20,263 bases of DNA from a virus, in the IMG/VR virus record IMGVR_UViG_3300008627_000080, positions 1 to 20,263 of that record, one strand, 5' to 3'. Positions within the stretch are counted from its first letter, which is position 1, and every line of letters starts with the position of its first letter. Positions 8,478 through 20,263 of this stretch are shown in pieces. The notes under the pieces were generated by a model that saw nothing but the letters and a program-made list of their open reading frames with translations, was not told where the DNA came from and ran no database searches. Position numbers and translations under genes: made by a program.

Positions 8478-9287
8478 ATGGCTGTAAAACGAAATTATTT
8501 AAACAATAAAGATATTTTAAAACAAATACATTTATCAAAACAGACATATTGTGCATATACACATGATAAATTTAAGGATTACGATTTAATTGTAGCAGAA
8601 CATGTTAATTGTATTGATATTGAAGATTTAACAGACGAAAATAAAGAAGAGGCAATTACCAATCGTAAAAAACGATTAGAAATTGACAAGGATGTAGAAG
8701 TAGAAATTGATCCAAATGATATTGTTTATAGAGTTTATGACTTTGCACACATACCTTTAGAACCAGGCAGAAAAAATAAACCTAAAACAATAGCGGATCA
8801 TCATGCTAAAGTAAATTTTCCTCCTTTTAAACACTATGTTTGGAATCAAAATAAAAACAGATATAAAGAAGTAGCAAGATCACATTGGAAGGGCACTATT
8901 TCTACAGGTAAGTTTTGTGTTGAACATGGATACATGACAGATGAACTTGCTAATATGTGTATGAAACTTACAGAACGATATGCTACACGATCTAATTGGC
9001 GAGGGTACACTTATGTAGATGAAATGCGGTCGCAAGCATTATTGCAACTATCACAAATTTCATTACAATTTGATGAGAGCAAATCACAAAACCCATTTGC
9101 ATATTATACTGCCGCAATTACAAATTCTTTTACACGAGTATTAAATGTCGAAAAACGTAGTCAAAATATACGTGACGATCTACTAGAAAAAGCAGGACAT
9201 AATCCTAGTTATACTAGACAAGTAGCACATCAAATTGCTATTGCTGAAAAAGCAGAAACAGAAAGAAGAGAACGAGGCGAAGTATAA
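8478..9287 (+). CDS. gp55: Late-transcription sigma factor, gp55-like
   Basis: 269 aa, longer than T4 gp55 (about 185 aa). The sigma region 2-like core is at residues 179-227: YVDEMRSQALLQLSQISLQF, then SKSQNPFAYYTAAITNSFTRVLNVEKR. The NPFAYYT and F.R....EK pattern is diagnostic for the gp55 family. The region around residues 139-175 also fits the family's N-terminal part, and roughly 60-90 extra residues of acidic/basic sequence (about 45-135) are inserted before it. It directs RNA polymerase to TATAAATA late promoters, several of which occur in this window. No clear C-terminal hydrophobic/acidic clamp-binding tail is visible; the protein ends in a charged helix. It is the first gene behind a sigma70 promoter. 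Its stop overlaps the next ATG by one base. Confidence 0.8.
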   Translation: MAVKRNYLNNKDILKQIHLSKQTYCAYTHDKFKDYDLIVAEHVNCIDIEDLTDENKEEAITNRKKRLEIDKDVEVEIDPNDIVYRVYDFAHIPLEPGRKNKPKTIADHHAKVNFPPFKHYVWNQNKNRYKEVARSHWKGTISTGKFCVEHGYMTDELANMCMKLTERYATRSNWRGYTYVDEMRSQALLQLSQISLQFDESKSQNPFAYYTAAITNSFTRVLNVEKRSQNIRDDLLEKAGHNPSYTRQVAHQIAIAEKAETERRERGEV

Positions 9288-10045
9288 TGCTTCATAGTAG
9301 AATCGATTTTAATGAAGACATTGCAACAAATGTTAGGTTATTTAATCCGTTTGGACCTAACATGTTTTATATGTCATTAAAAGATCGACATACAGCAGAA
9401 CTGTTAGAAATAATTAATAAACTTAGTAGCCAACAAGATATAAAAGATAAATTAAATGCAATTGGTCAAATTGTTCACGGTACTAAAGGAAAAGAAAATC
9501 AAAAAAATAGTATAGTTGATGGAGAAATGTATCCTATACGTACAGAATTTTTAGAAGAAAATGATAAACAAATTCTTATAGATGTAATTACAAATTTAAC
9601 ATTAACATATGCTCAAATTGTTACTTCTCATGCTAAAGATGATCTTGCATTAAGAGATGATTCTGATGCCATTGAAAAACTAAAAAAAGAAGAAAATGAA
9701 TATGTGGCCGAAATACAAGGTCTTTGGTATGTTAAAATGAAGGCTGGAGATTTTCATATACTACATGAACATTCTACATCTGGAGCAACTATGAGTGGAG
9801 CAATATATTTAGATGTACCTGAGTTACCTTGGCCACAAGGTAATATAAATTGGATTCCTCCTGGCGGAGAAAACACTATGTATAATAGTACATGGCAACT
9901 TAGTCCTAAATCAGGCGATGTTATTATGTGGCCTGCATGGTTATTACATACAGTATATCCATTTAAAAGTGATAAAGAACGAATTATGATTTCTTTTAAT
10001 TCTATTTTATTAACCCAAAAAGGGGAGAAGTATAATGCTTTATAG
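9287..10045 (+). CDS. 2OG-Fe(II) oxygenase, first of a tandem pair
   Basis: 252 aa. The C-terminal half carries a double-stranded beta-helix signature: FHILHEH (His160, His162), SGAIYLDVPE, GDVIMWPAWLLH with distal His221, and ERIMISFN with Arg232, expected to bind the 2-oxoglutarate carboxylate. This resembles the putative 2OG-Fe(II) oxygenase families common in marine T4-like phages. The N-terminal half (FNPFGPN onward) is helical and shared with the next gene. Substrate unknown: a nucleic acid base, amino acid side chain or small molecule are all possible. It starts at TAATG overlapping the gp55 stop, with GAGG about 10 nt upstream, and overlaps its paralogue by 11 nt. Confidence 0.75.
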   Translation: MLHSRIDFNEDIATNVRLFNPFGPNMFYMSLKDRHTAELLEIINKLSSQQDIKDKLNAIGQIVHGTKGKENQKNSIVDGEMYPIRTEFLEENDKQILIDVITNLTLTYAQIVTSHAKDDLALRDDSDAIEKLKKEENEYVAEIQGLWYVKMKAGDFHILHEHSTSGATMSGAIYLDVPELPWPQGNINWIPPGGENTMYNSTWQLSPKSGDVIMWPAWLLHTVYPFKSDKERIMISFNSILLTQKGEKYNAL

Positions 10046-10793
10046 TAATATTAATATTAATTCCGATATTGGAACTGATGCAAGTTTTTTTAATCCATTT
10101 GGTCCTAATATTTTATATTATAAATTACAACCCGATGTTTTAAAAAAAACATTAGATTGTGTAAATGCATACCGAAGTGATCGAGAATATATCGAAGAAT
10201 TAAAAACCAAAGGACAAATAATCCAAGGAACTAGATCACAAGAAAGTCAATCAAATTCTATTGTTAGTGGTGAAATGCTACTAATAGAACAAGAGTTTCA
10301 AGAAAAACATTTTGATAATATTATTCAAGATATTATTAATATAACTAGTTATAATTATGGATTACAATCTGCTAAATTTAGTGTATTCGATATGGGTATG
10401 CGAGATATACAAGACGAATATATAAAAGAAATTGACGAAGATATATCGTCATTGAAAGTTTCTATTAAAGATTGTTGGTTTGTTGTTTTAAAAGAAGGAG
10501 ATTTCCATATTTTACATGAACATCATTATGGAGGAGCAATTCTTAGTGGAGCAATTTATTTAGATGTACCTGAAAAGCCGTGGCCTCAAGGTAATATTAA
10601 TTGGATAGTTAATGGAGTTTCAACTCATATGTTTAACTCTAGTTGGGGATTACAACCAACCACAGGAGATGTTTTTATGTGGCCGTCTTGGATTAAACAT
10701 TCAGTGTATCCTTTTAAAGGAGAAGGAGAACGAATTATGATATCGTTTAATGCAACCCTTTTACGTGCAAGAGATAAAAAAAATGACAAATAA
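10035..10793 (+). CDS. 2OG-Fe(II) oxygenase, second of a tandem pair
   Basis: 252 aa, same length as the preceding gene and collinear with it. Shared blocks include FNPFGPN, GDFHILHEH (His161, His163), SGAIYLDVPE, PWPQGNINWI, GDV.MWP.W..H (His222) and ERIMISFN (Arg233), so both copies keep the metal and 2OG ligands. The C-terminal halves look about two-thirds identical by eye, the N-terminal halves less so. The duplicated segment seems to include the start region: both genes begin gAAGTATAATGCTTyATAGTA. A GGGGAG Shine-Dalgarno precedes the ATG. It overlaps the preceding and following genes by 11 nt each. Retention of two intact copies suggests different substrates or a heteromer. Confidence 0.75.
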   Translation: MLYSNININSDIGTDASFFNPFGPNILYYKLQPDVLKKTLDCVNAYRSDREYIEELKTKGQIIQGTRSQESQSNSIVSGEMLLIEQEFQEKHFDNIIQDIINITSYNYGLQSAKFSVFDMGMRDIQDEYIKEIDEDISSLKVSIKDCWFVVLKEGDFHILHEHHYGGAILSGAIYLDVPEKPWPQGNINWIVNGVSTHMFNSSWGLQPTTGDVFMWPSWIKHSVYPFKGEGERIMISFNATLLRARDKKNDK

Positions 10794-13554: not shown

Positions 13555-13750
13555 AACACCATGGATTGATAGAAGATCATTATTAGACATAACTCAACAA
13601 TCTAGAGGAGGAGCTGGATTGGCACCATTAGATATGGGATATGTATACGTCTTTAAAAACGGAGAAACCAGACATTGTTTAGATGACTCGGAGGCATATA
13701 ACTTTTATGCAGATAACAAAGAACGACTTGACTCAGAACCAACAATTTAA
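13547..13750 (+). CDS. Small hypothetical protein
   Basis: 67 aa, unrecognised. The C-terminal half (GYVYVFKNGETRHCLDDSEAYNFYADNKERLDSE) looks like a small beta-hairpin plus helix protein. It overlaps the gp46 3' end by 8 nt, as is typical of coupled phage genes, and is itself overlapped by the DHOD-like gene. No signal peptide or membrane segment. Real coding is supported by tight packing and ordinary composition; function unknown. Confidence 0.6.
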   Translation: MSETPWIDRRSLLDITQQSRGGAGLAPLDMGYVYVFKNGETRHCLDDSEAYNFYADNKERLDSEPTI

Positions 13751-14459
13751 ATTTTTTATAGCGGCCCCGTTTGGCAATTATATTAAACATAAAAATGCAA
13801 TTAATGTTAGAGGTTCTTTTACAATATTACGTAGACCAGGATTAATTAAACAACTATTTAGAACTCTTAGATATGATTTTTCTAAAAAAGGATGGAAGAA
13901 CGAATTAGGACTCCGTAATCCGGGTATAAAACACGGACTTAATAAATACAGAAACAACGGCAAAGAAGTTATAAGTATTGCCGCAATTATGCCTAGAGAT
14001 TGGGGTGACTTTGCAAAAGACATACCCGATCATGTAAACTTAGAATTAAATTTAAGTTGTCCAAATATCGATAAAGTAGAAATAGATTATAAAGCTCTTA
14101 CTAAGTTTTATAATGCATTTTGGGATAATAAACGAGAATGGTGTATAGCCAAAATATCGCCCCTATCTACAGAGGACGAAATCAAGCGATTATTAGACAT
14201 TGGGTTTGGTCAGATCCACTGCTCCAACACCCTCCCTATTACTGGCGGAGGATTGAGCGGAAAGGAATTGATAAGTTACACGATCAAACTCATAGATTAC
14301 ATAAAGACACACTTTCCCTCAGTGAAGATTATCGCAGGAGGAGGGATTGATCATATAGATATTGTAAATTACTATAAAGGTAAAGGTGCAGATTATTTCA
14401 GTTTAGGAACTGTATGTTTTACACCTTGGAAATTATCAAAAATACTTAATGCCAAGTAA
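13707..14459 (+). CDS. Dihydroorotate dehydrogenase-like flavoenzyme (PyrD family)
   Basis: 250 aa from the ATG at 13707, which has GGAGG 12 nt upstream; an ATG at 13683 and a TTG at 13728 are also in frame, so the start is uncertain. A TIM-barrel FMN enzyme is indicated by NELGLRNPG (65-73, orotate loop), NLSCPN (115-120), AKISP with Lys149, HCSNTLP with Asn174, GGLSG, then the phosphate-binding IIAGGGI (208-214) and ADYFSLGTV. Cys118 in NLSCPN is the class 1 catalytic base (class 2 enzymes have Ser). It would oxidise dihydroorotate to orotate for pyrimidine synthesis. It is shorter than cellular enzymes (about 300-340 aa), mainly at the N terminus. It sits in the early DNA-metabolism operon, so it is probably an auxiliary metabolic gene boosting nucleotide supply. 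A relative with another substrate is possible. Confidence 0.75.
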   Translation: MQITKNDLTQNQQFKFFIAAPFGNYIKHKNAINVRGSFTILRRPGLIKQLFRTLRYDFSKKGWKNELGLRNPGIKHGLNKYRNNGKEVISIAAIMPRDWGDFAKDIPDHVNLELNLSCPNIDKVEIDYKALTKFYNAFWDNKREWCIAKISPLSTEDEIKRLLDIGFGQIHCSNTLPITGGGLSGKELISYTIKLIDYIKTHFPSVKIIAGGGIDHIDIVNYYKGKGADYFSLGTVCFTPWKLSKILNAK

Positions 14460-14979: not shown

Positions 14980-15259
14980 GACCGGTTGAGAACGAGTACG
15001 CTCGTTCGGATCTCCGTGGCAAAAGCAGAAAAAATGAGTAGGCTCTCCTGACAATTGGAACCTACAAGGTATATAAGGTAGATCTAATTGCTTTATATAA
15101 ACCTGCGTTGGATAAGCAGAACGTAAAAAGGTACAGCCCAACCGCCTTAACCTATTTGGTTGTTCTATTAGAATGTGCTATGTCCGAAGGAAATAGTTAT
15201 CTTAGCCTTAAACAGGCTAAGTGTGACTTGACTCTCAGGAAATAGTTAAATAGTAATAG

Positions 15260-15267
15260 TATAAATT
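15260..15267 (+). promoter_or_regulatory. Weak late-promoter-like element (TATAAATT)
   Basis: Seven of eight bases match TATAAATA. Initiation near 15273 would give the HAD gene a leader consisting of the two 3' hairpins. In DNA this AT-rich such a match may be chance. Confidence 0.25.
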
Positions 15268-15317
15268 CGATCTGAATTACGAAGTAATGAAAGATCGTGA
15301 TGAGCTTTAGCTCATCA
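15268..15317 (+). promoter_or_regulatory. Two abutting hairpins just upstream of the HAD ribosome binding site
   Basis: First stem CGATCT/AGATCG with a GA/GAA internal loop and inner ATTAC-GAA-GTAAT (15268-15297). It is followed with no gap by TGATGAGC-TTTA-GCTCATCA (15298-15317). The Shine-Dalgarno AAGGAAGG (15321-15328) follows directly. There is no U-run, so it is not a classical terminator; a processing, mRNA-stability or translation-control element is more likely. Confidence 0.5.
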
Positions 15318-15331
15318 TTAAAGGAAGGTAA

Positions 15332-15853
15332 ATGAAACTAACAGAATTTGATTATCCTCAAATATACTGCGACATGGACGGCGTTTTAGTAGATTTAATA
15401 GAAGGTGCAACAAAAATATTAGGTTATAATTTTGCTGAACGTTATGGTTACGTTTCAGGAAAGCACGAACTATGGGATAAATTAGCAGAAGAAAAATTAT
15501 TTTGGGCAGAGTTACCTCCTATGCCTGATATGAAACAACTTTGGGGATTTATATCAACTTTCCAACCTTATATATTAACCGCTGTTCCTGCTGTTCGGTT
15601 AATATGGGATCCTCCAGCAGGAATTCAAAAAGCAATGTGGTGTGAAAAAAACTTAGGTATTAGCAAAGATAGAGTGTATGCTGTAAAACGCTCAGATAAA
15701 AAACACTTTGCTAAATCGCACGACGGTCGACCTAATATATTAATTGATGACCATCAACAAAATATTAATGAATGGAATAAAGCAGGAGGAAAAGGAATAC
15801 TCCACACATCTGCAAGTAACAGTATTAAACAATTAGAAGGTATTGGCTTCTAA
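15332..15853 (+). CDS. HAD-superfamily 5'(3')-nucleotidase-like phosphatase
   Basis: 173 aa. Motif I is CDMDGVLVD with nucleophile Asp14 and Asp16. Motif II is Thr83 in YILTAVP. Motif III is a Lys in the KRSDKKHFAK segment (119-128). Motif IV is LIDDHQQN with Asp139-Asp140. This is the layout of the NT5C-type deoxyribonucleotidase and related small HAD phosphatases found in many phages. The likely substrate is a nucleotide monophosphate, giving a role in nucleotide pool control with the DHOD-like enzyme; this is inferred. A strong AAGGAAGG ribosome site lies 3 nt before the ATG, behind two hairpins. Its stop overlaps the convergent small ORF by 4 nt. Confidence 0.8.
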   Translation: MKLTEFDYPQIYCDMDGVLVDLIEGATKILGYNFAERYGYVSGKHELWDKLAEEKLFWAELPPMPDMKQLWGFISTFQPYILTAVPAVRLIWDPPAGIQKAMWCEKNLGISKDRVYAVKRSDKKHFAKSHDGRPNILIDDHQQNINEWNKAGGKGILHTSASNSIKQLEGIGF

Positions 15854-16083
15854 AGATTTTGTTGCTGTTTCTTTCCTGCCTTTGCATCAAGTTTTTGTTT
15901 AACAATTTCAAAAAACATTTCTCTTTCATCATAGGTCAACATCCACATATCATTGTATGATATCATTCCATCTGAAAACACAACCAGTTCCATTAAATTC
16001 TTTTGAAAGGCTCTTACATCATCTTTCATTTCTTGTAAGATTTCCTGAATTTCGTCAGGAGTTGATTGTAAGAGCCTTAGGCG
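15850..16083 (-). CDS. C-terminal extension ORF, reached by -1 frameshift from the gp26/gp51-family gene
   Basis: This open frame of 77 residues starts in the -1 frame at the end of the upstream gene and ends at TAG (15850-15852). Its sequence looks coding and helical from the start: STPDEIQEILQEMKDDVRAF, then VVFSDGMISYNDMWMLTYDEREMFFEIVKQ. An internal ATG at 16029 could start a 59-aa protein, but about 18 codons of coding-like sequence precede it and it lacks a well-spaced ribosome site. Frameshifting would give a 442-aa fusion. The SYNDMW.LTYDERE.FF pattern recalls the short second chaperone segments (gpT-like) of phage tail-assembly frameshift genes; this is an analogy. No other gene fits this stretch. 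Confidence 0.65.
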   Translation of the reverse strand, partial: RLRLLQSTPDEIQEILQEMKDDVRAFQKNLMELVVFSDGMISYNDMWMLTYDEREMFFEIVKQKLDAKAGKKQQQNL

Positions 16084-16089
16084 AAAAAA
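16007..16089 (-). promoter_or_regulatory. Candidate programmed -1 ribosomal frameshift signal
   Basis: On the minus strand the zero-frame codons CTT TTT TTC contain the slippery heptamer T TTT TTC (16089-16083). After a 4-nt spacer comes a perfect 12-bp stem: AAGGCTCTTACA (16078-16067) pairs with TGTAAGAGCCTT (16018-16007) across a 48-nt loop. The zero-frame stop TAA (16079-16077) lies at the base of the stem. This is the standard layout of a -1 signal. The frame entered is open for 77 codons. Confidence 0.7.
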
Positions 16090-17177
16090 AGGGTCGGATC
16101 AAACACAATAGGAGTAGAAGATTTAGATGAACACTTTTCGCAATCAAATTCTATGATGTTATTAAAACCTACATCTGTTATTTCTACTATTTTTTCTGAT
16201 ATAGACCCAAAAGAAGTTCGTCCTATATCATGTAACCATTCAGCAATTAATTGTTTGTCCTCAATTGAAGCAGTTGGTGTGTCTACTTTTATTATAGACC
16301 GTAATACTAGCTCATACGTTATTTCGGTAATTTTCTTTAATGATTTGCCTAATTCTACTTGTTTTTCGGCATCAGTGGTATCATCATTTGCTAATATATT
16401 ATTAGTAATCGCAGACCTTTCAAAATTTGCCAATGCTGATTGAATTTGACAACGAAGATCATATGGTTTAACATATACAGTTAAATCGCCTATTACTATT
16501 TTATATTGTTTTTCGAGACCTGTTATTTGTGTATCTAATAAAAATTCTATATCTACATTAAATTCGGTAGATGTATTACATTTTGTACACAAACCACTAT
16601 AAGCTAATTCTTTCCCATATGTTACTAGTCGTATTGCTAACATTAAAACATTAAAATCTGGTCCAGGAATATCATTTGGATTTTCAATATCTGGTACACA
16701 CGATTTCATTACTTCAATTAATGATTCACCGTTCATTAAAATATCCGGAGATTTGAATAATAATTCATCTCTTGCAGTCATAGGTCTTACTAAAATTTCA
16801 TTTAAGTTTGATAACTTAGGAGGTATAGTATAAAAGTTACCATTACTAGGTAATATTACATATACTCCGGGAGGTCTATGATATTGCATTAACGGATTAG
16901 AAGAATTAGTTTCTAAAACAGTATGTCGCACATTATGTTTTTTTGATTCAACTGTTTTTCCACCCTCACCTGAAACAGGTGTCTCTCGCTCAATTTTTTC
17001 TTTTTTAATCTGTTTTTTGGGAGTTGTTGAAAAATTATCTAATGCTTGATTTGCTATTTTTAATACAGGTTCTGCTTCTGGATTGTCTTTATATTTTTCT
17101 ATAAATTGTTCTACTTGTTCTTTTGATTCATTAATGTCATAAAACTCGTTTAATATAACATTTGCATCTTCGGGCAT
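16077..17177 (-). CDS. gp26: Baseplate/hub assembly protein, T4 gp26/gp51 family
   Basis: 366 aa. The family domain runs from about residue 105 to the end: VILPSNGNFYTIPP, RPMTARDELLFKSPDILMNGESL, a helix DFNVLMLAIRLVTYGKEL and then CTKC (197-200). CEKC at 346-349 completes a possible zinc-binding CxxC...CxxC pair. T4 gp26 (208 aa) and gp51 are both in this family, so the number is approximate. An extra N-terminal region of about 95 residues is charged and Lys/Glu-rich with a helical EQVEQFIEKYK segment. A strong GGAGG Shine-Dalgarno and a perfect TATAAATA late promoter (17206-17213) precede the gene. It ends at a slippery run, giving an alternative 442-aa product. Divergent from, and adjacent to, the tape measure gene, which suggests a role in tail-tube or tape-measure assembly. 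Confidence 0.75.
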   Translation of the reverse strand: MPEDANVILNEFYDINESKEQVEQFIEKYKDNPEAEPVLKIANQALDNFSTTPKKQIKKEKIERETPVSGEGGKTVESKKHNVRHTVLETNSSNPLMQYHRPPGVYVILPSNGNFYTIPPKLSNLNEILVRPMTARDELLFKSPDILMNGESLIEVMKSCVPDIENPNDIPGPDFNVLMLAIRLVTYGKELAYSGLCTKCNTSTEFNVDIEFLLDTQITGLEKQYKIVIGDLTVYVKPYDLRCQIQSALANFERSAITNNILANDDTTDAEKQVELGKSLKKITEITYELVLRSIIKVDTPTASIEDKQLIAEWLHDIGRTSFGSISEKIVEITDVGFNNIIEFDCEKCSSKSSTPIVFDPTLFFA

Positions 17178-17187
17178 TTTCCTCCTT

Positions 17188-17195
17188 AATAAATA
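17188..17195 (+). promoter_or_regulatory. Candidate late promoter (AATAAATA) for the tape measure gene
   Basis: One mismatch from TATAAATA. Initiation would be near 17201, leaving a leader of about 24 nt before the ATG at 17225 with only a weak AGG-type ribosome site. Confidence 0.4.
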
Positions 17196-17205
17196 TATAT
17201 AACTC

Positions 17206-17213
17206 TATTTATA
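17206..17213 (-). promoter_or_regulatory. Late promoter (TATAAATA) for the gp26/gp51-family gene
   Basis: The minus strand reads CTATAAATAGAG, an exact match to the T4 gp55-dependent late element. Initiation near 17200 would give a leader of about 23 nt containing the GGAGG ribosome site. Confidence 0.75.
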
Positions 17214-17224
17214 GGCAGAAATTC

Positions 17225-19786
17225 ATGGCATCTATACAACTTCCAGGCGTAGGCTCAGTAGAAATACCTGATTTTGCTACAGATTACACATTACAACAAG
17301 TATTAAATGTTCTTTCTAGTCAAGAAGCAGAACGTATCCAGGCCTTAGGAGAAATTAACCAAACACTTGTTACAGGATCAAATGTAAGTAGAGCTCAATT
17401 AGCTAGAGATACAGAGACAGCATCTAATACTGGAAGAATGTCTCGAATGCAGGCAGTCCAACATAGAACCAATCTTCAGACATTAAATCAAATGAAAGCT
17501 CAGCATAAAGAAATGTTATCTGCTCAAAAAAGAGCATCTGGGGCTTTCGCTCAACAAATGCCACAAATTATGAGAATGGCTGGTTCAATGATATCAGGAA
17601 AAGGTATTAGTGATGCATTAAGTATGATGCCAGGTGGCCTTGGCCAAGGGATAGCATTAGCAACAAAAGTTGTAGGAGAATTTGCCGATTCTCAACGCAG
17701 ATTAACAGATGTAGGTATGGGATTAGGAACATCTATTATTAATACAGGAGAAGCAATTAGTAGTTTTAATGTGCCATTAAGTGAATTAGAACGAATTGCA
17801 GGATCAAATGCAGTAACTTTAAATTACCTTAATGATACTACTATGGATATGACAAAGGCACATAAGGACTTATTAGATCAAGGAGTCAGACCTGGTGTTT
17901 TTGCATTTGGATTAATATCGAAAACAGCAAGAGATAGCATGAAAGAATTTGGTAATTTTGGATTTACAGTAACAGAAGTAAATTCTTTCTTAGCAGAATA
18001 TTTAGAAACTGATCGAAAACGAGGAGTATTAGCACAGAACTCTGCTGTAAATTTAGCCGCAAATTTTAAAGCACTAGCCCAAGAAACTGCCGCCTATGCT
18101 TACGATACAGGTAGAAATCGCAAAGATTTAATGAAAGCCCAAATAGAAAATTTAAATCGTACTGATGCATCAACGTATGCTATGATGCTTAGAATGAAAG
18201 GCGAAGAAGGTGCGGCAGAAACATTTGAAAAGAATTTAGCATTAATTACAAATGAAATGAAATCTCGATATGGAGAAAATGCAGATTCGATGATTGATGC
18301 ATGGATACAAGCTCAAACACAAGGTAGAGGTCTAGAAGCAACAGAAGCAGGTGCAGAATTTATGGCTATGTTAGGACCAGCAGGTGCTGTTTTAGATCAA
18401 ATGGCAAGATCTGGAGAAGCAATAGACCCTGCAATGTTTGGTAAATTTCATAAAGCATTAGAACAATCAGTAAAATCATATGACACTCAAAATTTTCAAT
18501 TATTAGCAACTCAACATGAATCTTTACAAACAGCAGGTCGTATGTTATCTGAAGCTAGAACTACTACTGCCGAATCTCGACATCAAGCAAAATTACGATT
18601 GAAAGAAGGAGCCCAATTATTAAAAGCAAATGAAGCAGTAGTTACAGTAACAACAGATTTACAACAAGGAATGTTAAGAGTAACTAATGCAATGGTTGGA
18701 GAGGGAGGGGCCCTTCAACCTGCACTTAAAAAAGCAATTGAATCAGTTGGACAATTTACAACTGCAATAGGGCAAGCGGCAAAAGGTGAAGGATTAGCCG
18801 CTTCGGCTACTATCGGAAAAATGTTATTGGACAATCCTTGGCAATTTTTGGCGATGGGAGCAGGTGCTTCAATGCTACCTAATGTTAATAAAATGTTTCC
18901 ACAATCAGGAACATCTATGGCAAACCAAAATAAATTTGCTAGTAGTTTGGCTATGTCACAATTAGGTTCCGCAACGGTTGGTCAAGGAAATAAAGTATTA
19001 AGAGGAGGACAAACATATGAGCTAAAGAACAATATATTTACAGATCCTAATTCCGGTTTGGACTACAAATATGATCCCAAAACTGGAAAATTTACACCAA
19101 CTAAAGGAGCCATAAAATCTATTACAGGTGGAACTGCGAGTAAAGCCATAACAGGAATGAAAGGTGGTACATTATCAGGTATATTTTCCATTGGAATAGC
19201 AATGATGGAAGGTTATGAAGAATTACAAAGATCAGAATCAGAATTTAATGCACAATGGGGTGGTGCTGACGTAAATAAAGATTCGCAAGAATATAAAGAT
19301 GCGGTCGCATTAAGAGATAAAAGAAGAAAAGATATTGCAATTAAAACTTTAGGAAAAGGTGGCGGCGGTATGGGCGGTTCTATGTTGATGGGTGGCCTTG
19401 TAGGAATGCTAGGTGGCGGACCATTAATGTCGATATTAGGAACTGCACTCGGTGGTTATTATGGTTACAAATGGGGTGGCGAAGCGGCAGAACAAGTAAC
19501 TGGTAGAGAAGATATTTTTACTACAATGCAAGAAAGTATGGGCGAACATGGTAACGAATATACGCAAGGTCAAAAATTAGCACAAGAACAACAAAAAATT
19601 ATAAACATGGAAAAAGCCAAAACAGATCCTCAATATTTAGAATTAACAAAAATACAAAAATTATTAGTAGATCATGGAACAAAATTAGATGTAATTGCTG
19701 GTGCATCAGCATCTACCGCTATAGAAACAACAAAGATAACCAGAACACAAAGCCCGGCTATAGGCCCTCCTGGGAGAAATTATTAA
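17225..19786 (+). CDS. Tail tape measure protein
   Basis: 853 aa from the ATG at 17225. A TTG 21 codons upstream is in frame, but it lies inside the divergent promoter region and overlaps the opposite gene, so it was not used. The N terminus is a small beta segment (MASIQLPGVGSVEIPDF), then long Ala/Gln/Met-rich alpha-helical sequence typical of tape measures, to about residue 560. Hydrophobic Gly-rich segments near 660-690 and 735-780 (MLMGGLVGMLGGGPLMSILG, TALGGYYGYKWGG) look membrane-active, as expected for a protein that is ejected ahead of DNA. T4 gp29 is 590 aa, so the tail may be longer, or the protein carries extra domains. Its place next to the portal and a baseplate assembly gene supports the call; the sequence itself is too low in conserved motifs to be certain. 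Confidence 0.7.
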   Translation: MASIQLPGVGSVEIPDFATDYTLQQVLNVLSSQEAERIQALGEINQTLVTGSNVSRAQLARDTETASNTGRMSRMQAVQHRTNLQTLNQMKAQHKEMLSAQKRASGAFAQQMPQIMRMAGSMISGKGISDALSMMPGGLGQGIALATKVVGEFADSQRRLTDVGMGLGTSIINTGEAISSFNVPLSELERIAGSNAVTLNYLNDTTMDMTKAHKDLLDQGVRPGVFAFGLISKTARDSMKEFGNFGFTVTEVNSFLAEYLETDRKRGVLAQNSAVNLAANFKALAQETAAYAYDTGRNRKDLMKAQIENLNRTDASTYAMMLRMKGEEGAAETFEKNLALITNEMKSRYGENADSMIDAWIQAQTQGRGLEATEAGAEFMAMLGPAGAVLDQMARSGEAIDPAMFGKFHKALEQSVKSYDTQNFQLLATQHESLQTAGRMLSEARTTTAESRHQAKLRLKEGAQLLKANEAVVTVTTDLQQGMLRVTNAMVGEGGALQPALKKAIESVGQFTTAIGQAAKGEGLAASATIGKMLLDNPWQFLAMGAGASMLPNVNKMFPQSGTSMANQNKFASSLAMSQLGSATVGQGNKVLRGGQTYELKNNIFTDPNSGLDYKYDPKTGKFTPTKGAIKSITGGTASKAITGMKGGTLSGIFSIGIAMMEGYEELQRSESEFNAQWGGADVNKDSQEYKDAVALRDKRRKDIAIKTLGKGGGGMGGSMLMGGLVGMLGGGPLMSILGTALGGYYGYKWGGEAAEQVTGREDIFTTMQESMGEHGNEYTQGQKLAQEQQKIINMEKAKTDPQYLELTKIQKLLVDHGTKLDVIAGASASTAIETTKITRTQSPAIGPPGRNY

Positions 19787-19843: not shown

Positions 19844-20263
19844 ATGAGCTGGAAAAAACATTTTACAGTATACCAATTCGGTAATACTAAAAAAGTAGGA
19901 CAATCACATACAAGTGCAAGTAAATTTGGTTCTTGGTTACCTGAAGTTTATACAGGACAACCTAATAGAATTGAACGTTATGTTCAATACGACCAAATGG
20001 ATATAGATTCTGAAGTTAATGCGGCTTTAGATACTATTGCTGAATTTTCGACACAATTTGTAGATAAAACAAATATACCATTTGAAGTCGAATGGAAAGA
20101 AGATTCAACAGAAACTGAAGTAGCATTATTAGAAAAAGCATTAGAACAATGGAATAATCTAAACGATTGGGATAAACGTATTTGGAGAATATTTAGAAAT
20201 ACATGTAAATATGGAGACCAATTTTTTATTAGAGACCCGGAAACATATGAATGGAATTGGGTT
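19844..20263 (+). CDS. gp20: Portal vertex protein gp20 (partial, 3' end off window)
   Basis: 140 codons are visible, with no stop before the window edge; T4 gp20 is about 524 aa, so about a quarter is present. Recognisable family sequence: SWLPEVYTGQPNRIERYVQY, then MDIDSEVNAALDTIAEFSTQ, then LEQWNNLNDWDKRIWRIFRNTCKYGDQFFIRDPETYEW, closely like marine T4-like portals. It forms the dodecameric DNA gate at the unique capsid vertex and nucleates head assembly. The ATG at 19844 has AGGA 6 nt upstream. It lies 57 nt after the tape measure stop, with its own dual promoter. Confidence 0.95.
   Translation, partial: MSWKKHFTVYQFGNTKKVGQSHTSASKFGSWLPEVYTGQPNRIERYVQYDQMDIDSEVNAALDTIAEFSTQFVDKTNIPFEVEWKEDSTETEVALLEKALEQWNNLNDWDKRIWRIFRNTCKYGDQFFIRDPETYEWNWV

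Follow-up and report, generated by a model that had tools for sequence, protein, structure and literature searches.

The 20,263-nucleotide (nt) stretch analyzed here, referred to as the window, comprises positions 1 to 20,263 of the IMG/VR virus record IMGVR_UViG_3300008627_000080 and carries on its minus strand a gp26-like gene that very probably gives rise to two tail-assembly chaperones (TACs), TAC-N and TAC-NC, through -1 programmed ribosomal frameshifting. This gene, the proposed TAC-N, runs from 16077 to 17177 (-) and encodes 366 amino acids (aa) with CxxC pairs and the C-terminal motif FDPTLFF, matching PF12322 and phrog_150. Its last codons read GAT CCG ACC CTT TTT TTC GCC TAA, which places the slippery heptamer T TTT TTC (U UUU UUC in the RNA) at 16083-16089 (-) in the zero-frame phase suited to a tandem -1 slip, one codon (GCC) ahead of the zero-frame stop TAA at 16077-16079 (-). 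A spacer of 4 nt separates the heptamer from a stem of 12 perfect base pairs, whose 5' arm AAGGCTCTTACA (16067-16078, -) and 3' arm TGTAAGAGCCTT (16007-16018, -) were both located by folding, an inverted-repeat scan and covariation, while an inner hairpin within the loop of this long stem (16043-16060, -) was located by folding. The -1 frame remains open down to the stop at 15850, and the resulting extension (15850-16089, -), the proposed TAC-C, counts 79 codons including the two slipped Phe codons, plus the stop, and would yield a 442-aa fusion. Heptamer, stem and both product lengths had been put forward in an initial annotation made from the letters alone, and all of them were recovered at these positions.

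To place the junction in a comparative context, gp26 relatives were collected from phage isolates and from uncultured viruses. A tblastn search of a phage collection returned relatives in 67 records (60 of them listed), mostly of 285-490 kb; a query from Vibrio phage 2.275 found no relatives. The compared loci consist of 17 named phage regions together with IMG/VR loci chosen by gp26 protein similarity only, one IMG/VR similarity set being the best 80 of at least 573 relatives. We carried 120 loci forward and dropped two whose contigs end inside the gene, leaving 118 loci with 82 distinct junctions, among which the window's own sequence is L001. The heptamer is found at all 82 junctions, spelled TTTTTTC in 79 and TTTTTTT in three, and it is also present in each of six further loci that were omitted as repeats of the same branch. 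As the slip site was placed at the last pair of phenylalanines (FF) of the protein, the FF that starts each extension is given by construction; the spelling of the heptamer is not. The genes fall into 37 gp26 clusters at 60% identity, and the codon preceding FF encodes nine different residues among the cluster representatives, yet its last base is always T. Assuming independent clusters, the log10 P for the conserved slippery codons is about -17, a figure to be read with the reservation that the 37 clusters are not fully independent. Elsewhere in the compared genes an in-frame heptamer occurs at 2 of 22,811 other codon positions, and two of the ten other FF pairs are slippery.

The extension is likewise conserved as a protein. 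Complete extensions (n=80) span 65-83 codons, two others being cut by a contig end, and in all 17 named phages the extension lies directly 3' of gp26 in the -1 frame. That this frame is coding-like, as first proposed, is borne out by the third positions of the -1 frame, which change most within the extension in each of 15 pairs of relatives picked by hand. Used alone as a tblastn query, the extension matched 32 phage records with E values from 6e-5 to 0.7, some of them weak. Its AlphaFold model is all-helical with a mean predicted local distance difference test score (pLDDT) of 88.6 and found no match with an E value under 0.001 in a viral structure library. By hhalign, window-type extensions align with cyanophage-type extensions (E=2.6e-4, probability 42%), and the latter align with the tail of T4 gp51 (E=2.1e-5, probability 77%).

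Folding the junction RNA of the window gave a minimum free energy of -27.6 kcal/mol (z -5.67), which none of 200 shuffles equaled. A perfect 12-base-pair inverted repeat with a loop of 20-60 nt occurs once in the window and is absent from 17 of 20 mononucleotide-shuffled windows. When all 52 sequences outside the RaK2-like clade were pooled in a single register, 58.0% of the 12 pairs were formed, against a codon-preserving null (n=500) with a mean of 53.4% and a maximum of 56.2%, and 47.9% when slid by +1; this excess is small because some sequences put the 3' arm elsewhere. After the pooled result had been seen, a subset of 23 was selected by a protein criterion, namely alanine at the alignment column of the 3' arm. 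The stem register was tested on these 23 of the 52 sequences. In the subset, 10 pairs are 90.9% formed, and at most 52.2% when the partner is shifted. Permuting synonymous codons within columns (n=1000) gave a mean of 84.2% and a maximum of 87.8%, and the observed pairing therefore exceeds the level imposed by the protein.

Covariation was assessed in an alignment (A6) of 11 of the 23 sequences, chosen mainly for equal loop length, with L013 one codon longer. Left unaided, RNAalifold predicted 10 of the 12 stem pairs in A6 and nothing else, with two-sided changes in five of the 10. Over all 12 pairs, 91.7% of the alignment cells are paired compared with 29.5-56.1% when slid, and 15 cells carry two-sided changes. 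None of 500 shuffles reached the observed values for paired cells, cells with two-sided changes or the covariation score; the number of pairs with two-sided changes was reached by 12 of 500 and that of further pair types by 13 of 500. A DNA pattern scan that asked for nothing but slip site plus stem retrieved 12 viral contigs, and all 12 hits lie at gp26-like 3' ends with a 78-codon extension behind, a result to be read knowing that three of these contigs had already been seen, that L138 and L148 are the same sequence at the site, that L140 has just 34 gene codons (E 0.003) and that the pattern also fixes a few residues. The features that the initial annotation had named for checking in homologues, namely the heptamer, compensatory changes in the stem and the -1 open reading frame (ORF), are conserved there. 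No clear stem was found in five far sequences (L010, L012, L018, L020 and L027), and Rfam gave no match within 15200-16400 up to E=1 and none at gathering score across the window.

The RaK2-like junctions (L014-L017, L019, L021-L026 and L112-L125) keep heptamer and extension and show no conserved downstream stem. On comparative sequence evidence, the covarying stem is present in the window's branch and its wider relatives and not in the RaK2-like enterobacterial jumbo phages.

Turning to the zero-frame product, the PF12322 match (E=1.5e-11; 44.9 bits against a cut-off of 24.5) covers residues 126-365 of 366 and extends to position 218 of 219 of the profile. As the match runs almost to the last residue of protein and profile alike, the short product by itself makes up a whole family member, to which the extension is an addition. 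The gp26-like protein additionally bears about 88 added N-terminal residues (16914-17177, -), and in its AlphaFold model (pLDDT 85.8) the N-terminal residues 5-50 are helical, residues 52-77 form a linker of low confidence and the conserved body follows. Proteins of at least 345 aa with this N-terminal part occur at five of the 82 junctions (L001, L006, L008, L032 and L037) and in none of the 17 named phages. In the viral structure library, baseplate hub assembly proteins of T4-like phages match the body of the 366-aa model. A Foldseek comparison of this model with the PDB gave nothing significant, both models returning only middling VIA rows, and because these fold matches are not significant a solved TAC relative can be neither named nor excluded. 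No lambda-type TAC family was among the Pfam or PHROG matches.

As a side observation, the gp26-like model also matches larger, mostly uncharacterized proteins of phiEaH2, RSF1, phiRSL1 and Special G (E about 1e-6 to 7e-5). Judging from the model, these proteins of other jumbo phages may be unrecognized chaperones.

The genes surrounding the frameshift locus lie on the opposite strand. At the 3' side, a convergent deoxyribonucleotidase-like gene (15332-15853, +; phrog_2643, with a sub-threshold Pfam match to NT5C) shares 4 nt with the end of the extension. At the 5' side, a divergent gene (17162-19786, +; 855 aa from the ATG at 17219) sits between gp26 and a gp20-like portal gene (19844-20263, +; phrog_213), whose 3' end is cut by the end of the window. 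Neither Pfam nor PHROG gave a significant match for the divergent neighbour. The initial annotation had located the frameshift next to the tape measure gene; a large neighbour is indeed there, on the other strand, and we consider it likely, not proven, that it is the tape measure protein, because of its position, its size, weak similarities and the presence in virions of proteins encoded at the same place. Relatives of the neighbour occur in six of the 82 loci, and its product weakly resembles the proteins encoded at the same place in PA5oct (E 1.5e-4) and SCTP-2 (E 0.008). For the same-place protein of RaK2 the record notes similarity to a tape measure protein, and Tape_meas_lam_C matches below threshold (E 0.36). 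A portal match was found upstream in 50 of the 82 loci, 67 of which have more than 2500 nt of upstream sequence. In the accessible part of the CBB virion table, the same-place protein CBB_251 is listed with 29 unique peptides and 50% coverage, and that part holds no rows for CBB_249 or CBB_250. The PA5oct record carries an electrospray ionization tandem mass spectrometry (ESI-MS/MS) mark on the same-place neighbour and on the portal and none on the gp26-like gene. CBB_251 measures 722 aa, and the CBB tail, given as 123 nm in the part of the source available, is near the length predicted from the ratio in T4 (590 aa), for which we take a tail of about 98 nm.

Paired chaperones of this kind are familiar from T4-like phages, and Vladimirov, Gautam and Davidson reportedly described in 2022 (Virology 566:9-15) that TAC-N and TAC-NC are made there by frameshifting or from two genes, the T4 genes in question presumably being 26 and 51. 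The available passages of later papers credit Vladimirov et al. 2022 with polyT slippery signals in the TAC-N genes of T4-like phages (PMC12846349) and with the use of two genes in place of a frameshift in some of them (PMC10885494), and a 2016 review, in the part at hand, still gave T4 as the exception (PMC5009743). The initial annotation knew of no frameshift described in the gp26/gp51 family, a statement that this T4-like case has overtaken: as far as these sources extend, the principle is already in print for T4-like phages and the window locus is a further example of it. Among the matches listed, judged by titles and the beginnings of abstracts, none reported frameshifting of the gp26 gene in RaK2-like phages or in large phages similar to them. 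In our own comparison, the 3' end of gp26 in S-RSM4, P-HM1, Melnitz-1, Aeh1, pf16, V07 and YB07 shows T TTT TTC or T TTT TTT, with an open -1 frame beyond it, so that layout and heptamer are found in seven of eight non-T4 T4-like relatives. T4 gene 26 ends in GAG TTC TTT and lacks the heptamer, and T4 gp51 runs in frame into extension-like sequence. No U UUU UUY site was found at the end of gp26 of Shigella phage AG3 (Ackermannviridae). An extension-like short ORF in AG3 (L135, at about 3244) starts at an overlapping TAATG and is perhaps made by coupled initiation.

The window locus thus resembles the T4-like TAC-N/TAC-NC systems in that its TAC-N is homologous to T4 gp26 (PF12322), ends in an in-phase slippery heptamer and is followed by a -1 ORF that begins at the slip site and is conserved as a protein. 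It differs from them in its longer extension (77 aa after FF), its covarying downstream stem, the extra N-terminal residues of its branch and the divergent orientation of its neighbour. With lambda gpG/gpGT, going by the accessible part of PMC5009743, it would share the making of a shorter and a longer chaperone from a single start, through a -1 slip close to the gene for the tape measure protein, in the window a likely one; it departs from lambda in that no sequence match was found, in its U UUU UUC site and long stem, and in a neighbour that lies on the other strand and not co-directionally downstream of the TAC genes. For the TAC of Vandenendeviridae, with its GTTTTT motif, comparative reasoning of this kind likewise led to a conserved -1 frameshift (PMC12846349, as available to us); going by the description given there, the phage family and the motif at the slip site both differ from those of the window. 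What may be new is the stem with its covariation, the finding that it is confined to some branches, and the helical domain at the N terminus.

Several observations weigh against the interpretation as frameshifted chaperones. The stem was not found in the RaK2-like clade, 20 of its sequences showing no excess pairing and 12 no consensus structure, with several rows of the RaK2-like alignment (A8) cut a few bases away from the slip site, and single-sequence folds of 81 junctions gave a z below -2 in only 34. The extension matches the T4 gp51 tail profile weakly (E 0.012, probability 3.5%). Recognition of the tape measure gene relies solely on where it lies, its size and weak similarity; in the window the gene is divergent, and Atu_ph07 has a 205-aa gene annotated as tape measure 15 genes away. 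The CBB record names the gp26-like product 'structural protein', and the CBB portal (CBB_252) likewise has no row in the part of the virion table available. Finally, a start codon (ATG, GTG or TTG) lies within the first 12 codons in 29 of the 80 complete extensions and upstream in the -1 ORF in seven, and a TAATG or ATGA overlaps the zero-frame stop at 13 of the 82 junctions (9 of 21 RaK2-like ones and 4 of 61 others).

Such start codons near or overlapping the stop make separate initiation possible in the junctions that have them, and 15 of the 17 named records list the extension as a short protein or ORF of its own, while it is missing from the other two. The downstream ORF might accordingly be a second gene with its own start, reached by coupled reinitiation without any fusion. 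We nevertheless regard this as very unlikely, since 47 of the 80 complete extensions, that of the window included, have no ATG, GTG or TTG either in codons 1-12 or in the part of the -1 ORF upstream of them, and in these 47 the conserved start of the extension cannot be made by separate initiation. In the window itself the -1 frame has no such codon from the upstream stop to extension codon 20, the first ATG being codon 21. Two separate genes would also leave unexplained that the slippery codons are kept against synonymous drift and that the stem covaries, and at none of the 82 junctions was the downstream ORF distant or furnished with its own start in the absence of a slippery run. Slippage could instead occur during transcription, RNA polymerase slipping on the T run so that mixed mRNAs yield the fusion, and the run of seven consecutive T in the window would suit this. 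Polymerase slippage usually requires longer runs, and 75 of the 82 junctions have only six T with the reading phase kept, while the conserved stem at ribosomal spacing fits a ribosomal signal; we rate a polymerase-based mechanism as slightly less credible still than separate genes. Homopolymers are error-prone sites, and we also considered that the gene might truly have a single frame, its T run having been misread or misassembled. As all 82 distinct junctions share one phase, those of the 17 named isolates among them, and as the short product and the Pfam model end at the same place, the chance of such an error is negligible.

A different objection accepts the frameshift and takes the protein for a part of the baseplate hub, as annotated, in place of a tape measure chaperone. 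T4 gp26 and the Pfam and PHROG names point to the baseplate, and the CBB record labels the product as structural. Against this stand the two-form design, the position of the gene adjoining a virion protein and the portal, the gp26-like product lacking a mass-spectrometry mark in PA5oct and a row in the accessible CBB table, and the published reinterpretation of T4-like TACs, which reached us through parts of PMC10885494 and PMC12846349. A hub protein is hence improbable in our view, albeit the most serious of these competitors. Slippery site, selection on -1 coding and covariation of the stem are established comparatively, at the level of sequence; what we infer is slippage of the ribosome and not the polymerase, the product ratio and the chaperone function.

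In the chaperone interpretation, two proteins would be made from one start at the window locus. Most ribosomes would terminate at the zero-frame stop and release the 366-aa gp26-like TAC-N, whereas the downstream stem would hold the ribosome at U UUU UUC and let a minority slip back one base, adding the 77-residue helical domain to give TAC-NC. If lambda gpG/gpGT and the TACs of T4-like phages are a guide, the tape measure protein would be coated by TAC-N, the extension would serve to bring in subunits of the tail tube, and both would depart before virion maturation. The chaperone frameshift of T4-like phages is extended here to large and to uncultured phages with strong comparative evidence, and the covarying RNA element makes the frameshift ratio testable in lineages with and without the stem; the findings also argue for renaming such 'baseplate hub' entries. 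A broader reading, to which we would give about even chances, is that one branch of large T4-like phages (uncultured relatives of the window together with Agrobacterium phage Atu_ph07 and Sinorhizobium phage Phosso) carries a dedicated covarying stem that tunes the chaperone frameshift, that RaK2-like phages keep the slip without a stem and often with a start overlapping the stop, that T4 swapped the frameshift for two genes and that the window's branch gained an N-terminal helical domain, which together would represent graded solutions to one stoichiometry problem.

Some further features of the window lie apart from this locus. Between 14980 and 15331, upstream of the deoxyribonucleotidase-like gene, about 350 nt without a listed gene contain hairpin-like repeats, with no Rfam match at gathering score. 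At 9287-10793 (+) there is a tandem pair of 252-aa genes, both putative 2-oxoglutarate (2OG)-Fe(II) oxygenases (PF13759, E about 3e-18 each), and 13683-14459 (+) holds a dihydroorotate dehydrogenase-like gene (PF01180, E=6e-10).
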